The notes below the pieces were generated by a model. It was not told the DNA's origin. It ran no database searches and was given only the letters and a program-made list of their open reading frames with translations. 35,953 nucleotides of DNA. Source: Gammaproteobacteria bacterium (GTDB lineage: Bacteria > Pseudomonadota > Gammaproteobacteria > Thiohalospirales > Thiohalospiraceae). Location of the stretch: assembly GCA_024277575.1 (NCBI GenBank), contig JAJRUX010000135.1:1-35953 (forward strand), read 5' to 3'. A program made the position numbers and the translations under genes. Below are positions 7,011 through 30,608 of this stretch, one piece after another; the first letter of the stretch is position 1, and every line of letters begins with the position of its first letter.

Positions 7011-7691
7011 TCAATCCTCTTCTCTCTCTGGCCAGTCCACATCGGCATGAACCAGATTGTAGTGACAGTGGATGCAGGATTTTTCGCCCTTGTCTATCTG
7101 TGGCCTCGCCGCCTTATGTTGTTTTATCCCACTCCACACTTCGGCATCAATCTTGTGGCACACCATGCATTTTTCACTCCGATCGGCAACCATCTTGTCC
7201 CGTACACGGGCCGCCAGCTTGATGCGCAGCTCCTCCCATTCGGGAATATCGCGCAAGCTGTTCGAGATGGCATCAAACGGGGATTTTCCATATCGTCCGT
7301 CATTAATATATAGAAACTTGAAGTGAAGAAACTCCCCAAGACCATGTGGTTCATGACAGCCGACACACCCGGGGCGAACACCCAGATCATTATCGTAGTG
7401 CGGCGAATCCTTGTACTCATAGAATGGATAGGCATGACACTCACCACACCCCACGGACATATCAAACGCCGCCGGCTCAAACAGTTTTGTGGGCTTGAAA
7501 TCATCAATGGACTCACTCAACCCACCCATCGGCAAATCCTCTTCCGGATTTTCGAATACCTCATGGCAGACGGTGCAGGCGCTTGGCCTGGTAAAGCGAG
7601 AACTACTACAACTCACTCCGGAAACAATGAGAATAAAGACAAGCACAGAGGCAATGGTTATAAGCCCTGTTCTGGATTTCAGGAAGTTCAA
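7011..7691 (-). CDS. Membrane-anchored pentaheme cytochrome c
   Basis: A 226-residue protein with five CxxCH heme sites at about residues 39-43, 82-86, 109-113, 175-179 and 206-210. Residues 10-27 form one hydrophobic segment followed by VSCSSS; it could be an NrfH/NapC-like membrane anchor or an imperfect lipobox. The start codon is TTG, chosen because an AGGAGG lies nine bases before it. It is the last gene of the Fe-S/NrfD/molybdopterin operon and is separated from the molybdopterin subunit by about 35 bases. It probably passes electrons between that complex and periplasmic partners. Classical NapC/NirT proteins have four hemes, so this is not a standard member. Partner and direction of electron flow are unknown. 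Confidence 0.82.
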   Translation of the reverse strand: MNFLKSRTGLITIASVLVFILIVSGVSCSSSRFTRPSACTVCHEVFENPEEDLPMGGLSESIDDFKPTKLFEPAAFDMSVGCGECHAYPFYEYKDSPHYDNDLGVRPGCVGCHEPHGLGEFLHFKFLYINDGRYGKSPFDAISNSLRDIPEWEELRIKLAARVRDKMVADRSEKCMVCHKIDAEVWSGIKQHKAARPQIDKGEKSCIHCHYNLVHADVDWPEREED

Positions 7692-7725
7692 TCGACTACC
7701 CCTCCTTTAACCGGTTCCCCGGAGA

Positions 7726-10125
7726 TCATGCCTGCTCCTGCGCTTGTTTATAGACGGCAAGATGCTTGCTGTTGTCCACCTGGATCTGGCCATACTCATC
7801 ACCAGGCACGGCAGGAGTAACCGTTACCAGCGTATCGTTCCACGTCTGCACTCCGCTGGACGGGTCGATGGCAACAGGAATGATATCGTTTGGATTTGTG
7901 CCACTGTCCTGCCACCACAAGTTGTGATCAATATCATGGTCCTCCAGCTCCTCACGGGCAAATGGAACATGTTCCCCGGCATCAGCAACGGCCACGCGCC
8001 CGTAGGCGGTTCTGCCAACAGAGGTGGAGATTCCGACCACCTGCGGGTGGATTCCGTTGGTCAACCACGCCTTGGTAACGAGATATCCCACCTCACTTGT
8101 CACCCGCACCAGAGCACCATCCGCAATCCCCAACTTATAGGCGACATCCTTGTTGATCCAGAGGGGATTGGAGTGCCATAGCTCTGCCAGATATTTAAGA
8201 TTCGAGGTCCGAGAGAGCGTCTGGCAGGCCACCTTGTGCGTACTCAACACGAACTCATCCGGCTTGATGGCAGCCAGACGTGGATTTTCACTCCATGAAG
8301 GCAGTGCAGACAGCCCTTTTTCCTCCAGCGCTTCTGCATTTACCTCAATCTTCCCGGACGGAGTGGGGAAACCGGTTTCCATGTATGTATGGTAGGCTAC
8401 TTTTACCGACTCACCCTTTTTCATAATTTTTCTTCCGGTCGAATCAAGCTTGCCGTAATCGGGAAACACCCCTTTGGATTTCAGTTTCTTGTAACCATCC
8501 TGCAAACCTGGAGTTGCTTCTACCTCTTGTTTTACCCAGTCCACCGCATCCTTAAATCCCCAGTACTGCTTCATCTCCCGGCTACCATCGGAGTCAATGG
8601 TCTCAACAATTTTTTTCAGCGTTACCCGCACATCCTGCGCCTCACCAAGAATCTCGGCACCCGGCACCGTCATGGAGGCCCACGGTAGCAACGCTGTCGG
8701 ACTGCTGGCCAGATCGTCACGCTCCACTGCCACTACATCCGGCAAAACAATGTCAGCCAAGTCGGCAGTCTCGCTCATGAAGGGACTAAAGTCGACGAGA
8801 TAGGGAATCAGCTTTTCATCTTTCAACACCTCTCGCCACAAACTGGCGGCCGGAGATGAATAGGCGGGATTGCTCATATGATTGAACAGCACCCGTACCT
8901 GATGAGCACCGCTCTTCAGCTCAAAAGGGAAAGCATGATTTAGTTGTGCCGTACCATTTGTCGATGACTCAGGCGCGGGCTGAGGTGCAGCAATGTCGAA
9001 CCGCCGCGGCAAACAGTAGCCCCCTTCATTGTCGATATTCCCGGTAATTACCGCAAGCAGCGTACAGGCCATCTCTCCCTGGATGCCATTTTTGTGATAA
9101 CCAACCCCATTCTGACTGAATACGGTTGCCGGTTTGGCCTTGGCGAACTCAACAGCAATTCGTTCAATCGTCTCTACTGAAACACCGCTCGCCTTTTCTG
9201 CTATCTCCGGAGTAAACTGTTTTAAGTGTTCCGCCAAATCCTCGCTGGAGTAGTTGGTCCAGGTATCGATAAACCCGCTATCTGCCAGTCCTTTCCGCAT
9301 GATAATGTTGGCCATCGCCAAGGCAACAATCCCATCGCTACCGGGAAAAACCGGGATCCACTCATCGCTTTTTCCTGCGGTATTGGACATCCGCACATCA
9401 AACGTAACGAGCTTCAGCCGATTATCAACTACGCCATCGGCCAGCCGCTGCGCCAACGGAGGTGCGGTCTCAAGAATATTGGCACCAAAATTCAATACAT
9501 AGGTTGTATGCTCCAGATCAGGGAGGGCAAAATCAACGCCTAACATGGCCCCAAGTGCGGCCTGTTTGGCGGCACTACTGATAGAGGGAACTCGGCTGCG
9601 CAAAACGGAGCTGGAGCCAAGGGTATCCATGAATCGCAAGGTAGCCCCGTTCTTGAACGCCCCTTCATTCAAATAGACACTGTCAGCCCCACCACCATCC
9701 AGTGCTCCTGCCACCTTGCCAGCCACTTCGGCAATCGCCTCATCCCAACTTATCTGTTGCCATTTCCCAGCACCCCGTGCACCGACCCGCTTAAGGGGAC
9801 TGAGAATCCTGTCTGGATCGGTGGCAGCAAAGAACGAGGCCAGACCTTTTGCACAAAACTTTCCTCGTGTTGCGATATGATTGGGATTCCCCTCCGTCTT
9901 CATAATCCGCCCACTTTCTGCATAGGTAAAACCACCATCAAAATAAGGACACAGCGTACACAGATAAGGCTTCCTCTTGCGCGGTTGAAAGGTCCTGATC
10001 TGGTGGAACCCCTCACCGCCAAGCTCAAGCTCCATGGCGCCGCCAAGCGGCGGATATACCGCTGCTGTTGCAGCGGCCGCCGCACTTGCTTTAAGGAATT
10101 CACGTCTGTTGATTTCTATTGCCAC
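7726..10125 (-). CDS. Tat-exported molybdopterin oxidoreductase-family subunit (Psr/Phs/Qrc-like)
   Basis: About 799 residues. The start is set at the GTG giving VAIEINRREFLKASA, because GGAGT lies eight bases upstream and the twin-arginine signal (RREFLK) then sits at the extreme N-terminus. The protein has the full catalytic-subunit architecture of the DMSO reductase family: N-terminal cluster site, bis-MGD binding domains and the C-terminal cap with RVTSEVGYL. Two key positions deviate. The usual C-x2-C-x3-C-x27-C cluster site reads C56-x2-C59-x3-D63-x27-C91. The residue aligning with the Mo-ligand Cys/Sec is Ser (PSISSAAK, about 183). The Fe-S and NrfD subunits are upstream and a multiheme cytochrome downstream. 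Candidates include polysulfide/thiosulfate reductase, tetrathionate reductase (same B-C-A order) or a Mo-free Qrc-type quinone reductase. Substrate cannot be read from the sequence. Confidence 0.85.
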   Translation of the reverse strand: MAIEINRREFLKASAAAAATAAVYPPLGGAMELELGGEGFHQIRTFQPRKRKPYLCTLCPYFDGGFTYAESGRIMKTEGNPNHIATRGKFCAKGLASFFAATDPDRILSPLKRVGARGAGKWQQISWDEAIAEVAGKVAGALDGGGADSVYLNEGAFKNGATLRFMDTLGSSSVLRSRVPSISSAAKQAALGAMLGVDFALPDLEHTTYVLNFGANILETAPPLAQRLADGVVDNRLKLVTFDVRMSNTAGKSDEWIPVFPGSDGIVALAMANIIMRKGLADSGFIDTWTNYSSEDLAEHLKQFTPEIAEKASGVSVETIERIAVEFAKAKPATVFSQNGVGYHKNGIQGEMACTLLAVITGNIDNEGGYCLPRRFDIAAPQPAPESSTNGTAQLNHAFPFELKSGAHQVRVLFNHMSNPAYSSPAASLWREVLKDEKLIPYLVDFSPFMSETADLADIVLPDVVAVERDDLASSPTALLPWASMTVPGAEILGEAQDVRVTLKKIVETIDSDGSREMKQYWGFKDAVDWVKQEVEATPGLQDGYKKLKSKGVFPDYGKLDSTGRKIMKKGESVKVAYHTYMETGFPTPSGKIEVNAEALEEKGLSALPSWSENPRLAAIKPDEFVLSTHKVACQTLSRTSNLKYLAELWHSNPLWINKDVAYKLGIADGALVRVTSEVGYLVTKAWLTNGIHPQVVGISTSVGRTAYGRVAVADAGEHVPFAREELEDHDIDHNLWWQDSGTNPNDIIPVAIDPSSGVQTWNDTLVTVTPAVPGDEYGQIQVDNSKHLAVYKQAQEQA

Positions 10126-10138
10126 TGTCGGTACTCCA

Positions 10139-11047
10139 TCAATAGAATGTCTGCATGTATTGACCACCCATCACCCACCAGATCCGCATCCCATATACGC
10201 CAATGGCAACCAGGAACGAGGCGGTAACCAATCCCAATTTATACCGCTTCAGTGGCGTAACAAGAATGAATAACGGAATAATCAGACCGATAATGACCTC
10301 AAGCCACAGATAGGGGAAACGGAACAGTTCCATCAACACATACTTGTGCGCCATAAACACACCCTCCGAACCATAAAGAGCGTGCATAGCCTCGAGCGCC
10401 AGCAAAAACATATCAAACACGATTCCGATCATCATGTATTTTGCCAGCTCTTCGATCAGCTCCCACTTGATCTGCTTTCTGGGTTCAACAAGCATATTCA
10501 TGACCCAGATAACCAGAATCAGCATCCCGATGCCAGATATAAAAGCACCGGTTAAAAACAGCAGCGGGGCAAGCGCGGTATGGTTGATATAGCGGCCAGG
10601 ATTGAACTCCATCACCACGCCGGTATACCATTCAAGAGACAGAGCCAGTATAACGGCAATAATGCCGAAAAACCTGGCCCATCGCTGGTTGTTTTTTATT
10701 ACAAAACAGGTATAAATAACCATGAAAACCGGATAGGCCAAAATCAGTAACGAACCCCAGGCCATAGGTACGCTGTTATGCCAGTATGCGGGCAGCAGCA
10801 GATAAAAAAATCGCCACGGCTGTCCCTGATCCCAGATCAAAAGAACCGGAACGATCAACATAATCACAATAGCCAGTATGGCCGCAACCAGCGCCAAAGG
10901 CTTGTAACGCTCGATTCCGAACACCCAGCCAAAACTGGAGACCACCAACGAACCTGCGCTGACACCAACCAGCCAGAAATAGATCGTGATAGGCGTTCCC
11001 CATGCAACGTGGTGAAAAGCATTGGAGATGATTACACTCTCTTCCAT
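10139..11047 (-). CDS. NrfD/PsrC-type quinone-interacting membrane subunit
   Basis: A 302-residue integral membrane protein with about eight hydrophobic segments. It starts HHVAWGTPITIYFWLVGVSAG and includes LEWYTGVVMEF and ALEAMHALYG, all typical of NrfD/PsrC subunits. These anchor a periplasmic Fe-S/Mo module and exchange electrons with menaquinol or ubiquinol without heme. It starts 11 bases after the Fe-S gene. Its stop codon lies 13 bases before the molybdopterin subunit's GTG, and the intervening bases hold that gene's ribosome binding site. Confident family call; quinone type not determinable. Confidence 0.9.
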   Translation of the reverse strand: MEESVIISNAFHHVAWGTPITIYFWLVGVSAGSLVVSSFGWVFGIERYKPLALVAAILAIVIMLIVPVLLIWDQGQPWRFFYLLLPAYWHNSVPMAWGSLLILAYPVFMVIYTCFVIKNNQRWARFFGIIAVILALSLEWYTGVVMEFNPGRYINHTALAPLLFLTGAFISGIGMLILVIWVMNMLVEPRKQIKWELIEELAKYMMIGIVFDMFLLALEAMHALYGSEGVFMAHKYVLMELFRFPYLWLEVIIGLIIPLFILVTPLKRYKLGLVTASFLVAIGVYGMRIWWVMGGQYMQTFY

Positions 11048-11058
11048 TACCCCTTCCC

Positions 11059-11940
11059 CTATCCGAAAATCAGTTTTTTGAGATTACCAATTGCACTACT
11101 CGCCTTGTGCGGTATCGAAGCCAGGAAATCAACCATGTTTTTTCCCACCCAGTACATGGTCGATTCACCCTCCACAATGTCGGCGAACGCATCACCGTGG
11201 TGATTCTTTTTAAAGTCGTTGAATTCGGTTTTCATCTGTGCGGTTCTGTTTTTGTAGCTGTGCGGCTCGTCCATGATCTCCCAGTCGGCACCGATATAGA
11301 ACACTGACGGGCTGGTTCCAAGTTCTGGCTTCAACACAGTCACGGGCTCTTTTGCAACCAGCCTGGATACCTCACTGTCAGGGTCATTAAGATCACCAAA
11401 AATTCGCGCGCCACCCACACAGGCCTGCACACAAGACGGAGCAAGTCCCTTTTTCACCCGGTGGATGCAAAAGGTGCATTTATCAACCACCAGGGTGGGC
11501 AGATTCTTATCGGTACGCTTCTCCGGTATCAGATGCCGGGCATTATAAGGACAGGCAACGACACAGGTACGACAACCGATACAGCGGTTATAACGCTGCA
11601 GAACAAATCCATCCTTATGTTTGTAAGTGGCCTGAGTAGGGCAATTTCGCACACAGATGGGGTTGTCACAATGATTGCAGAGGCGCGGCATGAATACCCG
11701 CTTGGTATTTGGATACTTACCCTTGTCCGCCACCTTTACCCAGGTTCTCCAGACACCAAGCGGGACACCAAACTCCGATTTACAAGCTACCACACAGGAC
11801 ATACAGCCAATACACTTCCTGAGATCGATAGCCATTGCATAACGCTTGGTTCCGGGAACCCCCTTGGTTCCGCGTGTCTGAAGCCCGTAAATGCGGCGGT
11901 AGGGGTGAGTAGGGCTCTTGTCGTTGCTCGTTTCGGACAT
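11059..11940 (-). CDS. Four-cluster ferredoxin subunit (DmsB/PsrB/TtrB type)
   Basis: About 293 residues. Sixteen cysteines in four groups bind four cubane clusters: KCIGCMSCVVAC, LCNHCDNPICVRNCP, RCIGCRTCVVACP, and KCTFCIHR with SCVQAC. This is the electron-transfer subunit between the NrfD membrane protein and the molybdopterin subunit. The frame is open to a TTG at 11976, but the ATG at 11940 (MSETSNDK) is preceded by AGGCGAG at suitable distance and is preferred. It has no Tat motif of its own, so it is probably exported together with the molybdopterin subunit, as is usual for this family. It is the first gene of the operon, with an FNR-like site about 100 bases upstream. Confidence 0.88.
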   Translation of the reverse strand: MSETSNDKSPTHPYRRIYGLQTRGTKGVPGTKRYAMAIDLRKCIGCMSCVVACKSEFGVPLGVWRTWVKVADKGKYPNTKRVFMPRLCNHCDNPICVRNCPTQATYKHKDGFVLQRYNRCIGCRTCVVACPYNARHLIPEKRTDKNLPTLVVDKCTFCIHRVKKGLAPSCVQACVGGARIFGDLNDPDSEVSRLVAKEPVTVLKPELGTSPSVFYIGADWEIMDEPHSYKNRTAQMKTEFNDFKKNHHGDAFADIVEGESTMYWVGKNMVDFLASIPHKASSAIGNLKKLIFG

Positions 11941-12007
11941 GGATAAACTCGCCTGTTCTGTGCTAACCGCAAACAATTCATAAGAAAGTGACTAAACTGG
12001 CAGTGTT

Positions 12008-12190: not shown

Positions 12191-13317
12191 GGGTTCTTCG
12201 TGGATTAGTGCGGAACCTCGGGTTCCATATTCAATCCGCCACAGTAAAAAAGAATGCTGTTTCCAAACCCATCAAAGGATCGATAGCCTCTGGCATTCGC
12301 CTTGATTGTCTGTATCCTTGAATTCAATCCCTCAGCCACTCCATTGCTGATTCGATGCTTGAAGTACGTCAGAATGTTGGACAGGTGGGTCTTGATCATC
12401 CGTGCCTTTTCCTTGATGGGCTCCAGTCGGCTACGGATGGCCCAGGCATACCAACGTTCAAAATGACGGGCCGCCCAACCCGCGTAACGATAATTCCAGA
12501 ATTCCCGGAACAGCTCCTTCAATGCCCAGGCACGTGCAACTTTCAGTTCTGATTTCTTCAACTTCGCGAAGCATTCTTTATCTTCAGCGGCGATGTTCTT
12601 TTCGTTCCTCAGCCAGTGGTATCGGGTTCCTTTCAGACGGCTGTCTCCCTGCTTGTCCAGTTCCTTGTTTTCTGCCCGTCGAACCCTGTCCACCGCCTGG
12701 TTGAGGTGTTGGCTGATATGGAATCTGTCATGAACGATGTCCGCTTGCGGCAGTTTCTCGCCCACGGCGTTGGCATAGGCCTGCCACATCTCCAGGGCGA
12801 CAGCTGTCACCCCGGCCTGCTGTGACGGCGTCAATGCCTGGTCTATCAACCGTTTGGCGTCAGTCTCCGTTCGCCCTTCAATGACATCAAGTACGCGACC
12901 GCCTTCCAGGACTCGAATGGCAAAGGCCTCGAACAGCAATGTGAAGCGGCTGTTCTTGCCTGCCCAGGGAACCGTAACGCTCTTTACTCCGTGTTTCTCG
13001 CAGCGCACTCGCGGCACTTCGCCGTGCAGAAATGTGGCAAACTGCATGGTGTCCAGATGACGCCGGGTGCGTTCCTTGCGAAGGTCATATCTTGAAGACA
13101 TGGCACCACATTCCGGGCAGGGACCCTGGTCATCGGTATATTCGATTCGGATATCAACCCGCTGCTCTTCAAGCTTCAGGTCCACCTGGTAGTTCTCCCA
13201 AGAGCTTTCTATCCCAAGCAGTTGACCGTAGTGCTCTTCCAGTTCCATTATGGCTCCTCCGGCGTCTTGTCAAGATGCTATATCCTGCGAGGATTCCACA
13301 CTCTTTTGGGAAGAGCC
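12191..13317. mobile_element. ISL3-family insertion sequence with internal deletion
   Basis: About 1.13 kb bounded by imperfect inverted repeats. The left end begins GGGTTCTTCGTGG; the right end reads GGCTCTTCCCAAAAGAG on the minus strand, and both continue into AGTG(C/T)GGAA...CCTCG. The contained transposase matches ISL3 but lacks its central part, so the element is shorter than an autonomous copy. No convincing 8-base target duplication was found; the flanks are A/T-rich (AAAATATT and TATTTTAT). Confidence 0.75.
12205..13248 (-). pseudogene. ISL3 transposase with in-frame internal deletion (inactive)
   Basis: A 347-residue open frame with the ISL3 zinc-ribbon N-terminus (CPECG) and the C-terminal half with ISNGVAEGLNSRIQTIKA, holding the catalytic Glu. 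At about residue 115 the frame jumps from FEAFAIRVLE straight to GGRVLDVIEGRTETD. Roughly 60-70 residues are missing, including the helix-turn-helix and the LDEKSF-type segment that holds the first catalytic Asp. The second catalytic Asp, expected in VALDMWQAY, is Glu here (VALEMWQAY). The frame is intact, but the enzyme should be dead. It could still be moved in trans because the ends are present. Confidence 0.82.
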
Positions 13318-15489: not shown

Positions 15490-15912
15490 TTTCTGCATGG
15501 ATGGCCACAAGCGACCATTACATTCATTGAAACCATAGCAACCCCGCCTTCTGCTTGCGTTGCAAACCAAAGCGAAAATCCACCATTAACGGGGTGAGAT
15601 CGTTCTGCCTTGTAGCTTGAAATCAAGATCCTCCTACGCTCATCACGTCCTCCATGATGAATAACCACCATTCATTTTCGCAACTATTCAGGGAACCATT
15701 TCACCAACGCCATCGTGTTAACAGGGGAAAGGTGATTGGATGAACCATCATTTGGAATGAGATGAACAGTCAGTGACCATTCACCACCTTGCAGACGCAA
15801 AACAAACCTCCAGGAACCTGTTGGTTCCAGGTAATCAGCACCCACTCTTCCACCGGCGCAGTAGATTATCCCGGAATCCAGCAGGCTCTCGGGACGCATA
15901 CAGGAGAAAACA
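15490..15912. other. Intergenic region without clear gene
   Basis: About 420 bases between darP and the cytochrome lipoprotein pseudogene. A minus-strand frame (15684-15989, about 101 residues, including GSWRFVLRLQGGEWSL) has protein-like composition but no family match I recognise, and it overlaps the start of the pseudogene. An inverted repeat CCAGGAACC/GGTTCCAGG lies near 15810. I do not call a gene here. Confidence 0.35.
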
Positions 15913-16834
15913 CTGATTATTATTCCATCGCTGGCCACGCTGTTGATCGCATGTAACCCCGATGATACCACCTTGTCGACGAAATGCATCGGCTTCTTTG
16001 GCGGGTACTGTGCCAGGTACCATCATCGAGGCTTATGGTGACAATGGCTCCTATTACGTGATCCACTCCGATCAAAATGGGACTGCGCGACATCCATTTA
16101 ACCTGGATCTGCCGGCCGGGATTGGCTTCCGCCTGGTTATGATCACCAATGAAGGGACGAAGGAAGAGGTCATCACCCCGCTGGGCTTTCGTGACAGTAG
16201 CAGCAAGGTGCGAACCCGTTTTGTTCTCGGAAAAAACGATAGCATTGATCTTGGGTATGTACCCCTACCGACGAGCAGAAACGAAGCCGCCGACCGTGAT
16301 CATGACGGTGACGGCGTTATGGTTCTGGATGATGTGGGGGCGGGAAATCCACTGGTCTCTGTGATGCCGATGGTGATAAGATTAAGGATCGGGATGATGA
16401 TGATCACGGTGGTTATCACTATCCACACGGCGCAATTGATCCGCAGGATCATGACAATGATGGCGTACCAAATCGCTACGATCGTGACTATCGGTCGGGT
16501 AGTACCGATGGCGACGGGTTGCCAGACAATGTGGATGCTAACGAGAAAAACGAGAAAAACGAGAAAGATCATGGTAATGATGGTCTTCGTTTTGACCATG
16601 ACAAAGATGGTTATCTTGATGACGATGGCAGGGTAGGTGGTGAGGTCCAGCCCCGGCTCCAGGAGAGACACTGTTCAGCAGCAATTGCAGCAGTTGCCAT
16701 TCGCCCTCATCCATGAGAGGACGCTCAGCGGGCGCTATTTCATCCGCCATCAACAATAACGTAGCGGAATGGGCTACCTGTCATCACTGACTGCAACGGA
16801 GGTACAGCAGATTGCCGACTATCTGAACCGGTAG
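15913..16834 (+). pseudogene. Decayed lipoprotein cytochrome c with Asp-rich calcium-type linker
   Basis: Five segments in successive frames form one protein. First comes a lipoprotein signal (PSLATLLIAC, ending near 15960) behind AGGAG but with CTG where a start is expected. An extra A near 15984 shifts to NASASLAGTVPGTIIEAYGD and a folded domain up to about 16340. A shift in a G-run near 16335 gives repeats such as DADGDKIKDRD and DNDGVPNRYDRD, like thrombospondin type 3 calcium-binding repeats. A third shift near 16640 leads to APAPGETLFSSNCSSCHSP with a CxxCH heme site. A fourth near 16766 gives MGYLSSLTATEVQQIADYLN and a stop. It is on the same strand just upstream of the ECF operon, whose members share acidic composition. 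Four frameshifts in 0.9 kb while neighbours are intact suggests decay rather than sequencing error. Confidence 0.7.
16540..16566 (+). repeat. Three tandem copies of AACGAGAAA
   Basis: Three perfect 9-base units inside the Asp-rich part of the cytochrome pseudogene, encoding Asn-Glu-Lys three times. Probably replication slippage. Confidence 0.8.
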
Positions 16835-16880: not shown

Positions 16881-16975
16881 CTTTGATTTATCATGACTGG
16901 CGTACAAGAAAGATTTTAAGCTGTAATTAAGATTCGGGGGGTTATATTGAAGGCCAACAATCCACAGGGTCATCA

Positions 16976-17530
16976 ATGAAAATCAATATCTTCTCACACC
17001 ACCGGGGGCAGGATCCCACGTTTGAAGAGATGGTGGCACCGCACCTGGAACGACTGCATCAGCTCGCGTACCGGTACAGCGGCAACCAGGCGGACGCCGA
17101 GGATCTGATTCAGGATCTGCTGGTAAAGCTCATTCCCCGCACCGACGAACTGCGCAAGGTGGAGCAGCTGCATCCCTGGCTGGCGAAGGCACTCTACCGG
17201 CTGCATATCGACCGCTTTCGTAAATCAAACCGTAATCCGGTGGATGCTGGATATGATGAGCACATCAACCACTCCGCAGCGGCAAACCCGAATGATATGT
17301 CCCCGTCCCGGGTGAATCTGATCCGTGATCTGCACTCCGCCCTGCAACACCTGAACGAAGAGCAGCGCATACTGGTTATCATGCATGATGTCGAATCCTA
17401 TACGCTGGCAGAGCTGGAAAAGATTCTCGAGACTCCGTTAGGTACGTTAAAATCAAGACTGCACCGCAGCCGGGCCAAACTGAGAAAACTACTCAAAGAG
17501 GGAACTGTTTCACTGCAACGGGCGTGTTAA
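16976..17530 (+). CDS. ECF sigma factor (RpoE-like)
   Basis: A 184-residue sigma-70 family factor with only regions 2 and 4. Region 2 includes LAYRYSGNQADAEDLIQDLL near residues 32-51. Region 4 includes LEKILETPLGTLKSRLHRSR near residues 150-170, the usual DNA-binding helix-turn-helix of extracytoplasmic-function sigmas. AGGG lies about seven bases before the ATG. The next gene, 19 bases on, is a zinc-finger anti-sigma factor, so activity is presumably held in check at the membrane and released by an envelope signal. The downstream acidic protein, outer-membrane barrel and cytochrome b561 are the likely regulon. I could not locate a convincing self-recognised promoter. Confidence 0.9.
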   Translation: MKINIFSHHRGQDPTFEEMVAPHLERLHQLAYRYSGNQADAEDLIQDLLVKLIPRTDELRKVEQLHPWLAKALYRLHIDRFRKSNRNPVDAGYDEHINHSAAANPNDMSPSRVNLIRDLHSALQHLNEEQRILVIMHDVESYTLAELEKILETPLGTLKSRLHRSRAKLRKLLKEGTVSLQRAC

Positions 17531-17549
17531 CAGGAAACAGGTATGAAAA

Positions 17550-18227
17550 ATGAATTGTGAGCAACTTCATGAGCAGCTCGACAGTTACCTTGATGGTGAA
17601 CTGCCATCAGAGCTGCAGACCCGGGTCGAGTCCCATATCAGCGGATGTGAGAACTGCCGTGCGGTGGTTGCCGAGGCCAGGGAGATGCAGGAGGCATTAC
17701 GACAGATGCCTGCACCAACCATTCGCCCCGGCTTCGCCAACCAGGCCATCAAGCATGCCGTCAATCAGCACACTCACCATCGGCGTGGATTTGTCGCTGG
17801 CTTTTCCACCGCCCTGGCTGCAAGCATGGTTCTGGCACTGTTCATCGGCGGCTTGCTACCTGACATGAAGCAATCACCCGATTCAACCGTCACCCCGGTG
17901 GTCGTTATTTCGATACAGCAACCGCAAACGGTCAATCTGGTTTTTGATGTGGCAACCGCGATGGAAAATGCAACCTTGTCAATTGTTCTACCTGACAATG
18001 TTGAAGTTGTCGGTTTCCCCGGACAACATGAAATTACCTGGCAAACCAGCCTGCAAGCGGGTAGAAACATCCTGCCCTTGCCGCTGAAAGGGATCATGCA
18101 CAGCAGCAGCGCACTGGTCGCCAGTATCGAGCAGGATGGCAAAAAGAAATCCATCCGTATCCCCATCGAGGTTAATGACGGTGAGGTCAGCCCCCAGGTG
18201 GATCTGACCGGCAATCAAATCGCCTGA
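17550..18227 (+). CDS. Membrane anti-sigma factor with ZAS zinc finger
   Basis: A 225-residue protein. The N-terminal cytoplasmic zf-HC2 domain has the anti-sigma zinc motif H29-x3-C33-x2-C36 plus Cys3, and binds the ECF sigma. One transmembrane helix lies at about residues 82-104 (AGFSTALAASMVLALFIGGL). A C-terminal periplasmic part of about 120 residues is beta-rich (VNLVFDVATAMENATLSIVL and following) and is likely the signal-sensing domain. It follows the sigma gene directly, with its own GAAACAGG-type ribosome binding site. The presence of the His/Cys set suggests possible redox or zinc sensitivity, a known property of some ZAS proteins; this is inference here. Confidence 0.88.
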   Translation: MNCEQLHEQLDSYLDGELPSELQTRVESHISGCENCRAVVAEAREMQEALRQMPAPTIRPGFANQAIKHAVNQHTHHRRGFVAGFSTALAASMVLALFIGGLLPDMKQSPDSTVTPVVVISIQQPQTVNLVFDVATAMENATLSIVLPDNVEVVGFPGQHEITWQTSLQAGRNILPLPLKGIMHSSSALVASIEQDGKKKSIRIPIEVNDGEVSPQVDLTGNQIA

Positions 18228-18251
18228 AACAGCAGATAGAGAATATTTGAA

Positions 18252-18890
18252 ATGAGAATCTTCAAAGGCAACGTCATCAGTGCGGCAATGATGTTGATCA
18301 CCCTGCCGGTGTACGCGGTTAGTATCGAGGATCTGGATGACGTAACAATCCAGGTTATCGAATCCCTTGATGGTGATGAACTCAAAGAGGGTGTTCACTT
18401 TCTTGAGCTGCCGGGTATGGATGATTTCGAAAAGCCCACCACCTCCCGTGATGATAACCACGACAGGAAGCGGGATGATGACGATGACTCTTACCATAAC
18501 AAGGCAGAAAATGATGACGATGACCGGAAAGATTCCGCTGATGATCGGAAAAAGGAAGATGATGACAGTCGGGAAGAACGAGACGATGACAGGGAAAAAG
18601 ACAGTGGGCATCAGCAGAAGATAGAAGACTCCCGTGACAATCACAACGATCATGAGGAGCATGAGAAGCCCACCCGGAAGGATAGAGAGATTGAAGATAA
18701 ACGCGAAGATGGCAGGGAGGATCACAAACAGGCACAGGAATCAAAAGACGACCGGGATGACCATGACAAGTCTGACGATGATGACCAGAAAGATGTGAAT
18801 GAAGACCGTAATGATGCCAAAGAAGACCAAGAGTCTGTTAAAAATGACAAACAGGATAGCGATAATGAACAGGACAAGGATGATGACTAA
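18252..18890 (+). CDS. Exported extremely acidic, disordered protein
   Basis: A 212-residue protein of unknown family. Residues 1-22 are a Sec signal peptide (cleavage likely after LPVYA). Residues 23-58 form a short ordered-looking segment (LDDVTIQVIESLDGDELKEG). From about residue 60 to the end it is almost entirely Asp, Glu, Lys, Arg, His, Asn, Ser and Gln, with runs such as RKRDDDDDSYH and KSDDDDQKD, and almost no hydrophobic residues. Such a tail would be disordered and could bind calcium or other cations or act as a charged brush. Many GAT/GAC codons make the reverse strand look like a hydrophobic membrane protein, which is an artefact. It lies in the ECF operon between the anti-sigma and the outer-membrane protein. 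Function unknown. Confidence 0.8.
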   Translation: MRIFKGNVISAAMMLITLPVYAVSIEDLDDVTIQVIESLDGDELKEGVHFLELPGMDDFEKPTTSRDDNHDRKRDDDDDSYHNKAENDDDDRKDSADDRKKEDDDSREERDDDREKDSGHQQKIEDSRDNHNDHEEHEKPTRKDREIEDKREDGREDHKQAQESKDDRDDHDKSDDDDQKDVNEDRNDAKEDQESVKNDKQDSDNEQDKDDD

Positions 18891-18946
18891 AACCAGCAAC
18901 AAAAAAACGACTAACCGCTGACATCATTCTCAAGCCGGGCTAAATC

Positions 18947-20269
18947 ATGGATATGACAAAATTATCCGCGCAGGGGGCAGTTATGCTGCTCTTTTTGACG
19001 TTCTGTTTGTCATTGGGAACGGCCCACGCCAGTGGAAAACCCGCTTTTGAACAGGCCGTGCAGCTGTTCAGATCTGGAGACTATGCCGCAGCTGCCAGAC
19101 TGTTTGAACAGGTGCAGGCAGCTGACGGGAACAGCGCGATCATTCACTATAATCTCGGTTCCAGCTATTACAAACTAGGTCGCTACGGAGCAGCGCGCAA
19201 CCAATTTCAAAAAATAGATATCGAACACAAACTTGCTTCCATCACATACTACAATCTGGGACTCATCGCCTTCCGGCTGGAGGGAGCCGACGCTGCGGTG
19301 CGCTGGTTTCAACGCTGCCGCGACAGCAGTAATGACATAAAAATGCAGCAGCTGGCCGACAAACAACTCCGGCTGTTGCAGCAGGATCAAGAAACATCCT
19401 CCTGGCGGAACGAACTCTCCGGCTACTTCAGCGCCGCTGTTGGCTATGACAACAACGTGGCTCGCGTCCCTGATGAAATCCTTCAGGTATCTGATCATGA
19501 TTCCGCTTTTCTGGATCTGTTTCTTGCCTCCAGCTACTGGCTCAGCGGCGACCATCAACACGGTAACGCTCTCAAATTCGGTGGTAGCCTGACCCGTTAT
19601 GATCAACTAAGCGAATACAGCAACAACCTGATCAATATCGGCCTGTACCACTACCGTCCGGTCTATGGCTGGCACAACCGTTATGGCATTCACTATTACC
19701 GCACCGAACTGGGCGGCATTGGTTTCCAGCAACGGTTCAAACTGCAGGCGCGCGCGGGCAAGAAATATGCACCGGACCAACGGCTGCGGCTCCAGTACGA
19801 ATACAGCAAAATTGACGATCTCGGCGCCAGCTACAACTACCTTTCCGGTTCACAACAGCGCTTCAATATTGAAAACCGCACCCACCTCGACAACGGACGC
19901 CTGCAGCTGGGATACCGGCTCGAACTCAATGACAAGCAGGACTACCGGCAAGCCGACACCTTCAGCAGCTACTCACCCGTCCGCCAGACCCTGTACCTGT
20001 GGTACAAGCCAGTCCTGGGAGAAAACTGGACCGGCCGCATCGGGCTGGACTACCGACACAGCGACTATGGCAATCAAAATATCATTATCGGAACCGGTGT
20101 GGGGGTGCGTAAGGACAAACGCCTGCGCGCTACCATCGGCGCAGTTTATAAATATTCAGCAGATATCGAACTGGAACTCACGCTGCGCCATACCGAAAAC
20201 GATTCCAGTATCGTGGACAAAGAGTACATCAGCAATCAGCTGCTGTTGGCGGTCGGCTGGTATTATTAG
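18947..20269 (+). CDS. Outer-membrane protein: periplasmic TPR domain plus beta-barrel
   Basis: A 440-residue protein. The signal peptide covers about residues 1-29 (cleavage near AHASGKPA). TPR repeats cover about 30-150 (AVQLFRSGDYAAAARLFEQV, YNLGSSYYKLGRYGAARNQF). From about residue 155 on there are alternating amphipathic strands (GYFSAAVGYDNNVARV, YGIHYYRTELGG) ending in Trp-Tyr-Tyr, the aromatic C-terminus typical of BAM-inserted barrels. The architecture resembles Slam-type surface lipoprotein translocators and other TPR-porins. In this operon it could export or anchor the acidic protein encoded just upstream; that link is inference from position. Overall domain assignment is fairly safe, substrate unknown. 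Confidence 0.75.
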   Translation: MDMTKLSAQGAVMLLFLTFCLSLGTAHASGKPAFEQAVQLFRSGDYAAAARLFEQVQAADGNSAIIHYNLGSSYYKLGRYGAARNQFQKIDIEHKLASITYYNLGLIAFRLEGADAAVRWFQRCRDSSNDIKMQQLADKQLRLLQQDQETSSWRNELSGYFSAAVGYDNNVARVPDEILQVSDHDSAFLDLFLASSYWLSGDHQHGNALKFGGSLTRYDQLSEYSNNLINIGLYHYRPVYGWHNRYGIHYYRTELGGIGFQQRFKLQARAGKKYAPDQRLRLQYEYSKIDDLGASYNYLSGSQQRFNIENRTHLDNGRLQLGYRLELNDKQDYRQADTFSSYSPVRQTLYLWYKPVLGENWTGRIGLDYRHSDYGNQNIIIGTGVGVRKDKRLRATIGAVYKYSADIELELTLRHTENDSSIVDKEYISNQLLLAVGWYY

Positions 20270-20300
20270 CACTCTTTCAGAGGGACATGGCAAATGTCAC

Positions 20301-20316
20301 TGTGACAATTTTCACA
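20301..20316. promoter_or_regulatory. Perfect CRP/Vfr-type palindrome
   Basis: TGTGACAATTTTCACA matches TGTGA-N6-TCACA exactly. It sits in the 70-base gap between the outer-membrane gene and the cytochrome b561 gene, 22 bases before the b561 start codon. A flanking A/T on either side extends the symmetry to a short hairpin. It may be a CRP-family operator giving b561 separate control, or a small structural hairpin. Confidence 0.45.
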
Positions 20317-20338
20317 GTCATTACTCGTGGAGGTCATC

Positions 20339-20968
20339 ATGAGCAAAGGAAATACGGTAAAGGTTTGGGATATTTCTATCCGTATCTTTCACTGGTCGCT
20401 GGTCATTTCTTTTTTTGTCGCCTACATTACTGCGGAAGAAGCGGACCTTTTGCATATCTATTCCGGCTATGCCGTTCTGACCCTCGTCTCATACCGGTTA
20501 TTATGGGGGTTTGTTGGCACGAAATACGCCCGATTCCGCAGTTTTATCTTCTCGCCCGGGGAAGTGTTGCAGTACATAAAGAGCTTGGCGCAAGGCCACC
20601 CAAGATACTACATCGGTCACAATCCAGCAGGTGGCCTGATGGTTCTGGCATTGCTGACATGTCTGTTGATTGTAACAATCAGCGGACTAAAGCTCTATGC
20701 AGTAGAGGAGGGACTCGGGCCACTGGCTAGTGTAACCACCAACCTCTCCGTTGTCAGCAACGCTTATTCGGATGACGATGAACATGAAAAGAGCCATAGA
20801 AACGAGGACGGGGACCAGGAAGAGTTTTGGGAGGAGATACATGAGCTCTCAACAGACGTTACGCTGTTTCTGATTTTCTTGCATATTGCCGGCGTTTTCA
20901 TGACAAGCAAGCTGCACCATGAAAATCTGCCCAAGGCAATGATAACCGGCAGAAAACAGGCCCCCTAA
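20339..20968 (+). CDS. Cytochrome b561-family membrane protein with acidic loop
   Basis: A 209-residue protein with about four transmembrane helices and candidate heme ligands in RIFHWSL, LHIYSGY, HELSTDVTL and FLHIAGV. These are positions used by the prokaryotic b561/Ni-Fe-hydrogenase b family that binds two b hemes. The ATG at 20339 is chosen over an upstream GTG because GGAGG lies five bases before it. Between helices 3 and 4 is an acidic/His loop (YSDDDEHEKSHRNEDGDQEE), echoing the Asp-rich proteins encoded upstream. It is the last gene of the ECF operon and is predicted to move electrons between quinol and a periplasmic acceptor. The natural acceptor could have been the decayed cytochrome c upstream; this is speculation. 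Confidence 0.82.
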   Translation: MSKGNTVKVWDISIRIFHWSLVISFFVAYITAEEADLLHIYSGYAVLTLVSYRLLWGFVGTKYARFRSFIFSPGEVLQYIKSLAQGHPRYYIGHNPAGGLMVLALLTCLLIVTISGLKLYAVEEGLGPLASVTTNLSVVSNAYSDDDEHEKSHRNEDGDQEEFWEEIHELSTDVTLFLIFLHIAGVFMTSKLHHENLPKAMITGRKQAP

Positions 20969-28552: not shown

Positions 28553-29323
28553 CTATTTTGTGCGCTGGGCGCGCCAGTGACTCAGCTGCGCATACCCCAT
28601 CACGGAAATAATGGGAAACAGGCTGGCAAAAGCAATCAGGCCGAATCCATCCAGCAAGGCGCTACGTCCCGGCACAGTCGAAGCCAGCCCCAGACCCAGC
28701 GCCGTCACCAGCGGCACGGTCACGGTAGATGTAGTCACCCCGCCGGAGTCATAGGCCAGTGCAATGATCATTTTTGGCGCATAGAATGTCTGGATTATCA
28801 CCAGAATATAACCGCCAGTAATGTAATAGTACAAAGGGGTACCGGTGACAATGCGGTAGGTTCCCAACGCAATACCCACCGAGACGCCCAGCGCCACTGC
28901 AATCCGCAACCCCCAGATGCTGATCGCTCCACCGGATACCTCCTGCGCCTTGATGGCAATCGCCAGCAGCGAGGGTTCTGCCACGGTGGTGGAGAAACCG
29001 ATGGCCGCTGCAAACAGATAGACCCACATATAATCCTGCCAATGCATCACACTGATAATCCGCTCCACGTCTCCGTAGATGAAAGCCGGATCGGTAAGCT
29101 GCCTCGCCATCATTTCTCCCAGCGGGAACAGTGCTTCCTCCAGCCCTACCAGAAAAAACGCCAGACCAATCAATACATAGACAAATCCGGTCAGCACCTT
29201 TTTCAGATGAGGAACGGGTTTGCGGATCACCAGCAGTTGAAAACCAAAGATAACCGCTACAATGGGCAGAACATCCCGTACCGCCAGCATCGTGGTATTC
29301 AGCAAATGATGCAACAGCTCCAT
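28553..29323 (-). CDS. DUF1538 membrane protein (second of pair)
   Basis: A 256-residue multi-pass membrane protein. DUF1538 hallmarks are VGLEEALFPLGEMMA near residue 58, TTVAEPSLLAIA near 130 and the glycine/threonine-rich [20 protein letters not shown] near 195, followed by a hydrophobic end. The start shares one base with the stop of the preceding paralogue (TAATG-type overlap). Together with the PII-like and CBS genes it suggests a regulated transporter of unknown substrate. No catalytic motif recognised. Confidence 0.85.
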   Translation of the reverse strand: MELLHHLLNTTMLAVRDVLPIVAVIFGFQLLVIRKPVPHLKKVLTGFVYVLIGLAFFLVGLEEALFPLGEMMARQLTDPAFIYGDVERIISVMHWQDYMWVYLFAAAIGFSTTVAEPSLLAIAIKAQEVSGGAISIWGLRIAVALGVSVGIALGTYRIVTGTPLYYYITGGYILVIIQTFYAPKMIIALAYDSGGVTTSTVTVPLVTALGLGLASTVPGRSALLDGFGLIAFASLFPIISVMGYAQLSHWRAQRTK

Positions 29324-30054
29324 CAGATAATCATCCCATAGACCATGACGAAAATCATCGGCGTCAGCGAAGCGAAGGCGATCAGACCAAACCCGTCCAC
29401 CATCGGATTGCGCCCCTTGATACTGGAGGCCAGACCGACACCCAGCGCCGTTACCAGCGGCACAGTGATGGTGGAGGTAGTCACACCGCCGGAGTCATAG
29501 GCGATGCCGATGATCTCTTTGGGAGCGAACAGGGTCATAACCACCACTCCCAGATAACCACCGACAATCAGATACTGAATCGGCCAGCCACGCAGAATAC
29601 GCAGAACACCAACCATGATGGCCACTCCCACCGACAGAGCGACAGTCAACCGCAATCCCAGCGCATAGGCCGCCCGCTCATCCGGACTGTCACCAATCAC
29701 CGCGCCTTCGGCCGCCACCTTCGCCGCCTCGGCCGCCACCGCAATCAGTGCCGGTTCCGCTATGGTGGTGCCAAACCCCAGCGCAAAAGCGAACAGCAGC
29801 AGCCACATCACGCTGCCCTTGCGGGCAAAGGCGTAGGCCATGCTCTCGCCAATCGGAAACAGACCCATCTCCAACCCGCGCACGAACAGTGCCAGACCAA
29901 CCACAACCAGCAGTGTCCCCGTCAACAGCCGCTCCAGATCAGGCAGTGATTGCTGCAATACTGCCAGCTGGAAAAAGGCGATTACCAGAATAATGGGAAC
30001 CAGATCGCGGAAACTGTCCAGCAGACTCCGGCCGATTGCTCTCAGCCCCTGCAT
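29323..30054 (-). CDS. DUF1538 membrane protein (first of pair)
   Basis: About 243 residues from the ATG at 30054 ([12 protein letters not shown]). The frame is open further upstream to 30189, but those residues lie inside ampD and are not membrane-like. It has the same hallmarks as its neighbour: [27 protein letters not shown] and [21 protein letters not shown] small insertion ([16 protein letters not shown]) distinguishes it. The start overlaps the last codons of ampD by 13 bases. The two paralogues probably form a heterodimer or act as two halves of one carrier. Confidence 0.85.
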
Positions 30055-30608
30055 CGAGCACTCTTCAAGGCATCGAGATAGCGCGCCCAGTCGAACATCG
30101 GGCCGGGGTCGGTCTTGCGTCCGGGGGCGATATCGCTGTGGCCGGTAATACGCTCCGGTACGATGGCGGGATAGCTCTCCAGCAGACAACAGGTCAGTGC
30201 AATCAGGCGCTCGTACTGCACCTCTTCATAGGGCTGCTCATCACACCCCTCCAGCTCAATGCCGATGGAGAAATCGTTGCAACACTCGCGCCCCTGAAAA
30301 CAGGATTGTCCCGCATGCCAGGCGCGCTGGTGGAAAGGAACATACTGCACCACCTCGCCATCGCGGCGGATCAGCAGGTGAGCGGAGACCCGTTGCCCGG
30401 CAATAGTCTGTAAATAGGGATGAGCTGCGGGATCAAGGGTATTGGTGAACAACGCGTCGATCCAGGGGCCGCCATATTGCGCTGGCGGCAGGCTGATATT
30501 GTGAATCACCAGCAGGCTGATGGGCTCATCGCCGCCGCGTTCGTCACAGTTGGGAGAACAGACCTGGCGCGTGCCCTCCAGCAGCCCGGTAATGGTATCT
30601 ATTCTCAT
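30042..30608 (-). CDS. ampD: 1,6-anhydro-N-acetylmuramyl-L-alanine amidase AmpD
   Basis: About 188 residues, cytosolic zinc amidase that removes the stem peptide from anhydromuropeptides during wall recycling. Zinc ligands are visible in [10 protein letters not shown] (His) and in [15 protein letters not shown] (His and Asp). [20 protein letters not shown] in the middle is also typical. The start is set at [10 protein letters not shown]; an upstream extension of 15 residues is unlike the family. First gene of a seven-gene operon. Its product feeds the MurNAc pathway completed by AmgK and MurU, encoded elsewhere in the window. Confidence 0.93.

Follow-up and report, generated by a model that had tools for sequence, protein, structure and literature searches.

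A conserved gene set of sigma factor, anti-sigma factor, secreted protein and TPR-barrel, apparently an undescribed variant of ECF envelope signalling

Four adjoining genes, encoding an ECF sigma factor, a zinc-finger anti-sigma factor, a secreted protein (X) and an outer-membrane barrel with TPR repeats (the TPR-barrel), are, judged from sequence comparison, co-inherited as a module in many environmental bacteria. The module is widespread, being found in about one-eighth of the gammaproteobacterial genomes sampled, and appears to be a real, conserved and undescribed variant of ECF envelope signalling. Taken singly, the parts are of familiar kinds; what is apparently undescribed is their combination and the family to which X belongs. 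The DNA analysed (the window) is 35,953 nt long and forms contig 96 of a gammaproteobacterial MAG of 2.4 Mb. Our best explanation, held tentatively, is that the locus is a self-contained four-gene module for envelope signalling and display, in which the barrel handles X and X serves as the ligand of the anti-sigma factor.

The locus and its conservation

Five open reading frames on the forward strand, separated by short gaps, had been noted in a preliminary description of the window, and this layout holds (Table 1). Pfam and NCBIfam models support the assignments of the sigma factor, the anti-sigma factor, the TPR/BBP2_2 barrel and a cytochrome b561, and X matches no Pfam family. The sigma factor scores 82.7 bits with TIGR02937 against a cut-off of 42.9 and, with sigma2 and sigma4 domains and no sigma3, is of the ECF type. 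The b561 gene likely starts with ATG at 20339, the listed reading frame beginning with GTG at 20327.

Table 1. Features of the sigma factor locus in the window
Feature	Position	Strand	Basis or remark
TTAAG-N6-TTAAG direct repeat	16916-16931	+	~60 bases upstream of sigma start
ECF sigma factor, 184 aa	16976-17530	+	Pfam Sigma70_r2 4e-12, r4_2 1e-12
Zinc-finger anti-sigma factor, membrane-bound, 225 aa	17550-18227	+	zf-HC2 4e-10, alignments, AF2 model, fold match
X, secreted protein (predicted)	18252-18890	+	head conserved in >50 loci, tail not alignable
X signal peptide	~18252-18320	+	
X conserved head, DLDDVTIQVIES...VHFLELP	~18324-18413	+	
X disordered charged tail	~18414 to gene end 18890	+	
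TPR-barrel	18947-20269	+	Pfam TPR_16 and BBP2_2 over cut-off; AF2 pLDDT 86.7
Cytochrome b561 (Ni_hydr_CYTB), outside the conserved module	20339-20968	+	Pfam 5e-25

The anti-sigma factor comprises a cytoplasmic Hx3CxxC domain, one hydrophobic helix and an Ig-like periplasmic domain (residues 118-209). Residues H29, C33 and C36 are invariant across the family alignments. With zf-HC2 over its cut-off and an N-terminal Hx3Cx2C, the motif of class I zinc-binding (ASDI) anti-sigma factors (PMC7406223), the protein falls in that class. Among 13 of its relatives only zf-HC2 was matched, together with DUF3379 in two members, a domain for which the literature search found no paper. From the adjacency of the genes and the correlated distances of their products, we infer that the anti-sigma factor binds and inhibits its cognate sigma factor.

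A search of 76 relatives found the barrel in 12 genomes and the anti-sigma factor in 12, with 11 in common and the genes adjoining. When profile alignments were used on 370 Gammaproteobacteria, 46 genomes had the barrel, 42 the anti-sigma factor and 41 both; the presence of the barrel in 41 of the 42 anti-sigma genomes has a hypergeometric p of ~1e-47, a value that ignores phylogeny. The four-gene neighbourhood far exceeds chance. The order sigma-anti-X-barrel is found in about 50 loci, those of Marinobacter, Halospina and Thioalkalivibrio among them, and is constant in the loci retrieved, mostly with short gaps; locus L040 departs from the short gaps, further reading frames separating X from the barrel. 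Among the named carriers are Marinobacter litoralis, M. shengliensis, Halospina denitrificans, Thioalkalivibrio denitrificans and Steroidobacter gossypii. In two Desulfobacterota loci the order is barrel-sigma-anti-X, so the linkage outlasts rearrangement. Pairwise distances among sigma factors, anti-sigma factors and barrels correlate with r of 0.65-0.72 over 49 loci, which none of 500 Mantel permutations reached, part of this correlation being shared organismal history. The preliminary description had drawn a link between the charged protein and the TPR-barrel, and coupled the ECF and anti-sigma genes to the adjoining envelope genes; the first is genuine, the neighbourhood being conserved in relatives, and the second is supported. 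It had also counted the b561 in one set with the anti-sigma factor, X and the TPR-barrel, and of this set the b561 is not conserved.

Some other genes deserve mention. In L040 (7447-8397, forward strand), one of the copies in genome G051, a PAP2-like and a beta-barrel-like reading frame, assigned to families by eye, lie between X and the TPR-barrel. An operon on the reverse strand of the window (7011-11976), with a NapC/NirT-type multihaem cytochrome, a molybdopterin oxidoreductase with a TAT signal, NrfD and a 4Fe-4S protein, encodes a predicted periplasmic Mo-enzyme respiratory complex. An ISL3-family transposase (12205-13248, reverse strand) sits between this operon and pmbA. Two tandem DUF1538-type membrane proteins, the first of which was tested, are encoded at 28553-30189 (reverse strand), with a CBS-like reading frame further downstream.

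The secreted protein and its predicted partners

X begins with a signal peptide, directly followed by a head of about 30 residues with the pattern [DE][VI]T[MI]xV[IM], some 18 residues and IxLP. Among 60 sequences counted, the key position is T in 57 and S in three; [VI] precedes it in 54 and [MI] follows it in 59, and an IxLP-like sequence lies downstream in 54. These counts are slightly conservative, as four rows (L035, L039, L077 and L154) were mis-registered by the regular expression. Within the genus of the window, identity is 77-93% in the head and 27-65% in the tail. The tails have a median length of 90 residues with 30% D/E (range 9-64%) and 15% K/R; the median for aromatics is 0%, cysteine is absent, and several tails consist of internal repeats. 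Most tails are charged. Acidity is therefore common and not required, which rules it out as the defining feature of X; the tail in the window, once thought to be almost entirely charged, is about 45% D/E and 22% K/R, thus highly charged. What relatives do share at the protein level is the head, so that the reading frame itself is conserved.

A profile of the head, run over 276 genomes, matched in 35, mainly carriers of the module, and every genome with a strong match (E < 1e-5) carried the barrel or the anti-sigma factor. Extra X paralogues, unlinked to the module and differing greatly in their tails, occur in family f2 (G012, G257 and G160) and in G250. One X paralogue (L196:1-624, reverse strand) has more than 20 repeats of the PSKDT/PSNDT type and runs off the end of its contig. 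The alignments place X in an undescribed family of putatively secreted proteins, with a near-invariant head and a tail that appears free to vary.

Some genomes have incomplete sets. Thiohalomonas denitrificans has X and the barrel, and neither sigma nor anti-sigma factor within the stretch examined. In G376 and the genomes of family f2, the barrel and X are present without the specific anti-sigma factor, zinc-finger matches being generic or absent. In G021, sigma factor, anti-sigma factor and X are present and the barrel is absent at E 1e-20. As X persists without the anti-sigma factor in G376 and without the barrel in G021, neither partner alone explains its conservation, and X, found with the barrel alone or with the anti-sigma factor alone, is the constant element. 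Its retention with either partner fits a head used by both, and equally permits a third partner.

The genes for the anti-sigma factor and X share a reading frame, and the read-through of 17550-18467 was modelled by AF2 as a fusion, with stops read as Gly and an alignment of 12 paired and 27 anti-sigma-only rows. The periplasmic part of the anti-sigma factor is predicted to be all-beta (pLDDT ~95) and resembles the MG/Ig-like domains of complement and thioester proteins, at a modest Z of 7-8. In X, the signal peptide and linker have a pLDDT of 35-41; in the head, the six-residue strand VTIQVI (model residues 265-270) reaches ~89 and HFLELP ~92. When the model was aligned structurally with MG-type domains of complement, the match ran on in several cases to model residues 289-291, in the head of X. 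A strand of six residues needs a partner and the only other strand of X has three, so docking on the anti-sigma factor is the natural reading. This one artificially tethered model, read by its pLDDT, suggests that the X head docks on the Ig-like domain.

The model of the TPR-barrel, from a 14-row alignment (pTM 0.63), has TPRs at about residues 31-149 and 14 barrel strands at residues 157-439. The barrel is like OmpG and CymA (Z ~21). The TPR part matches many TPR proteins (Z ~17), with which SycD/PcrH-like matches tie, and these were set aside. Foldseek ranks BcsC first, and of the hits that span TPRs and barrel BcsC is the best; PelB also matches. The BBP2_2 model (PF10082) scores 26.2 bits against a gathering score of 23.7 over part of its profile (307-374 of 378), and is found at E 0.01 or better in 12 of 14 barrel relatives. 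PF04575 has no match in the window barrel at E up to 1 and is weakly matched in two of the 14 relatives (best E 7e-4); a genome-wide PF04575 scan matched nothing anywhere, its controls being equally matchless. No STN, plug or TonB-receptor model matched the window TPR-barrel or its relatives, and a search of plasmids with a Marinobacter barrel gave no match.

A possible mechanism and its alternatives

We consider it plausible, if short of probable, that X is the ligand of the anti-sigma factor and is handled by the barrel. Removal of the signal peptide would free the head of X, which would then dock on the periplasmic domain of the anti-sigma factor. The TPR-barrel would recognize the same head, and might export X, display it or anchor it in the outer membrane. 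Barrel genomes that lack the specific anti-sigma factor keep X, some with several unlinked paralogues, as would suit an exporter with its clients. How X is shared out between barrel and anti-sigma factor would report on the condition of the outer membrane, and this partitioning would set the release of the sigma factor, probably through regulated proteolysis by RseP, a protease of which type is encoded in the window genome. The last step is proposed by analogy with FoxA, the signalling domain of which binds FoxR and protects it from proteolysis (PMC11637429). Taken further, the locus would represent a novel ECF signalling class: a secreted, mostly disordered protein is both the client of an outer-membrane TPR-barrel exporter and the ligand of an anti-sigma factor, its conserved mature N-terminus is read by both, and export capacity or outer-membrane integrity directly controls sigma release; so full a version we regard as rather unlikely. 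Overall, the mechanism is moderately supported.

The operon may itself be switched on by a response regulator of the OmpR/PmrA type acting at the TTAAG repeat. The repeat is exact upstream of the sigma gene in five of five congeners, where a TATATT/TATCTT-like block follows it, and TTAAK-N6-TTAAK occurs, at a spacing of 6 only, in nine of 60 upstream regions from four lineages, against 0.14 per shuffled set. It resembles the PmrA/QseB box; a literature search for the PmrA box found nothing. The response regulator of the Cus-like cassette described below is not supported as the specific binder, since G007 has the box and lacks that regulator. Directly upstream of the sigma gene, at 15907-16831, lie pieces in three frames of a relative of L031:2026-3327, which holds the same place in its own genome; the window frame is either decayed or affected by sequencing error. 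The L031 product (433 aa) has a conserved N-terminal domain, DxDxDG/Asp-rich repeats and a C-terminal c-type cytochrome with one CxxCH.

Doubtful, yet with a real chance of being right, is a simpler arrangement in which the sigma factor merely drives expression of X and the barrel: the latter would export X or tether it to the surface, and the anti-sigma factor would sense a misfolded outer-membrane protein, a metal or an antimicrobial peptide, X being no ligand at all. Envelope genes next to an ECF system are commonly under its control, and the persistence of barrel and X without the anti-sigma factor in family f2 and G376 is as this arrangement would have it. It leaves aside, however, the high confidence of the X head in the anti-sigma fusion, and the retention of X with sigma and anti-sigma factors in the barrel-less G021. 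The barrel might instead be a channel for polysaccharide or small molecules, like PgaA, BcsC or PelB, with X as a periplasmic accessory or plug, the tail of which mimics an anionic polymer. The layout of TPRs and barrel and the matches to BcsC and PelB speak for a channel, but the flanks listed contain no recurrent synthase or glycosyltransferase genes, 14 strands are predicted where the barrel of BcsC has 16, and unlinked X paralogues have widely differing tails. We think such a role improbable.

The remaining alternative is the one favoured in the preliminary description, a five-gene redox/cation module, with acidic X as a binder of cations and the b561 coupled to the quinol pool. The b561 gene does adjoin the barrel gene in the window, and its orthologues are members of a Cus-like metal-efflux/PepSY/two-component cassette. 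However, neither the four module-bearing congeners nor the distant loci examined have the b561 beside the barrel, and the acidity of X is not conserved. The acidic/His loop of the b561 is real and common to congeneric orthologues. In three congeners the orthologues are on other contigs, next to genes for an RND efflux pump, a CutA-like protein, a PepSY-like protein and a response regulator/histidine kinase pair. The RND/PepSY cassette of the window genome is on contig 14 and has no b561 match, so the copy in the window appears to have been relocated out of the cassette and is a chance neighbour of the module. Without the b561, coupling to quinol or redox state loses its footing. The neighbourhood survey largely refutes the five-gene reading, which is highly improbable. 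The cassette as such is genus-wide (L208 = G000:C14; L113-L116 and L209-L211), with RND pump, CutA-like protein, b561, PepSY-like protein, OmpR-type regulator and histidine kinase; L208, the copy of the window genome, seems to have lost the b561.

Comparison with known systems

No described system matching this combination was found, in agreement with the preliminary description, and neither was any account of the X family, in a literature search outside which lay most subscription papers and bioRxiv. The TPR scaffold and barrel recall the exopolysaccharide secretins BcsC, PelB and PgaA, from which the TPR-barrel differs in its 14 predicted strands and in the lack of synthase genes in the flanks listed. 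BBP2_2 and EpsL-like proteins are akin in that the window barrel exceeds the Pfam cut-off, but the match spans the last strands only and the EpsL model (TIGR03014) scores well under its cut-off. With Slam and Type XI secretion (DUF560, PF04575) the locus shares an N-terminal TPR region, a 14-strand barrel as predicted by AF2 and an adjoining gene for a putative client. The earlier suggestion of a Slam-type barrel holds for the layout, and homology finds no support in Pfam: the window barrel has no match to PF04575 (DUF560/SlipAM), and membership of the Slam family was rejected on that ground. X also differs from known Type XI clients, having its conserved segment at the N-terminus and a low-complexity tail in place of their C-terminal beta-barrel domain. 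If the predicted docking is true, it would provide a means, itself open to testing, of finding the clients of an orphan TPR-barrel family, and cultured hosts (Marinobacter, Halospina, Thioalkalivibrio and Steroidobacter) make the module directly amenable to experiment.

As signalling systems, the closest parallels are found in RseA/RseB-sigmaE and in cell-surface signalling (FecI/FecR/FecA and FoxI/FoxR/FoxA). Like RseA, the class I anti-sigma factor is proposed to be controlled through a periplasmic partner, with an RseP-type protease in the genome; the partner, however, is X, which is short and secreted, ends in a disordered tail and shows no relationship by sequence, the anti-sigma factor has a zinc finger and an outer-membrane barrel is linked. 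Cell-surface signalling likewise combines an ECF sigma factor, a membrane anti-sigma factor with a periplasmic sensing domain and a clustered gene for an outer-membrane barrel. Here, in contrast, the barrel has 14 predicted strands and TPRs with no match to TonB-dependent receptors or STN, the periplasmic domain of the anti-sigma factor is Ig-like rather than STN-like, the FecR domain is matched in none of the 13 anti-sigma relatives, and there is an extra secreted protein, X, as the predicted ligand. Should the docking be true, an anti-sigma factor would be controllable by an exported substrate, and not by a receptor or a damaged protein.
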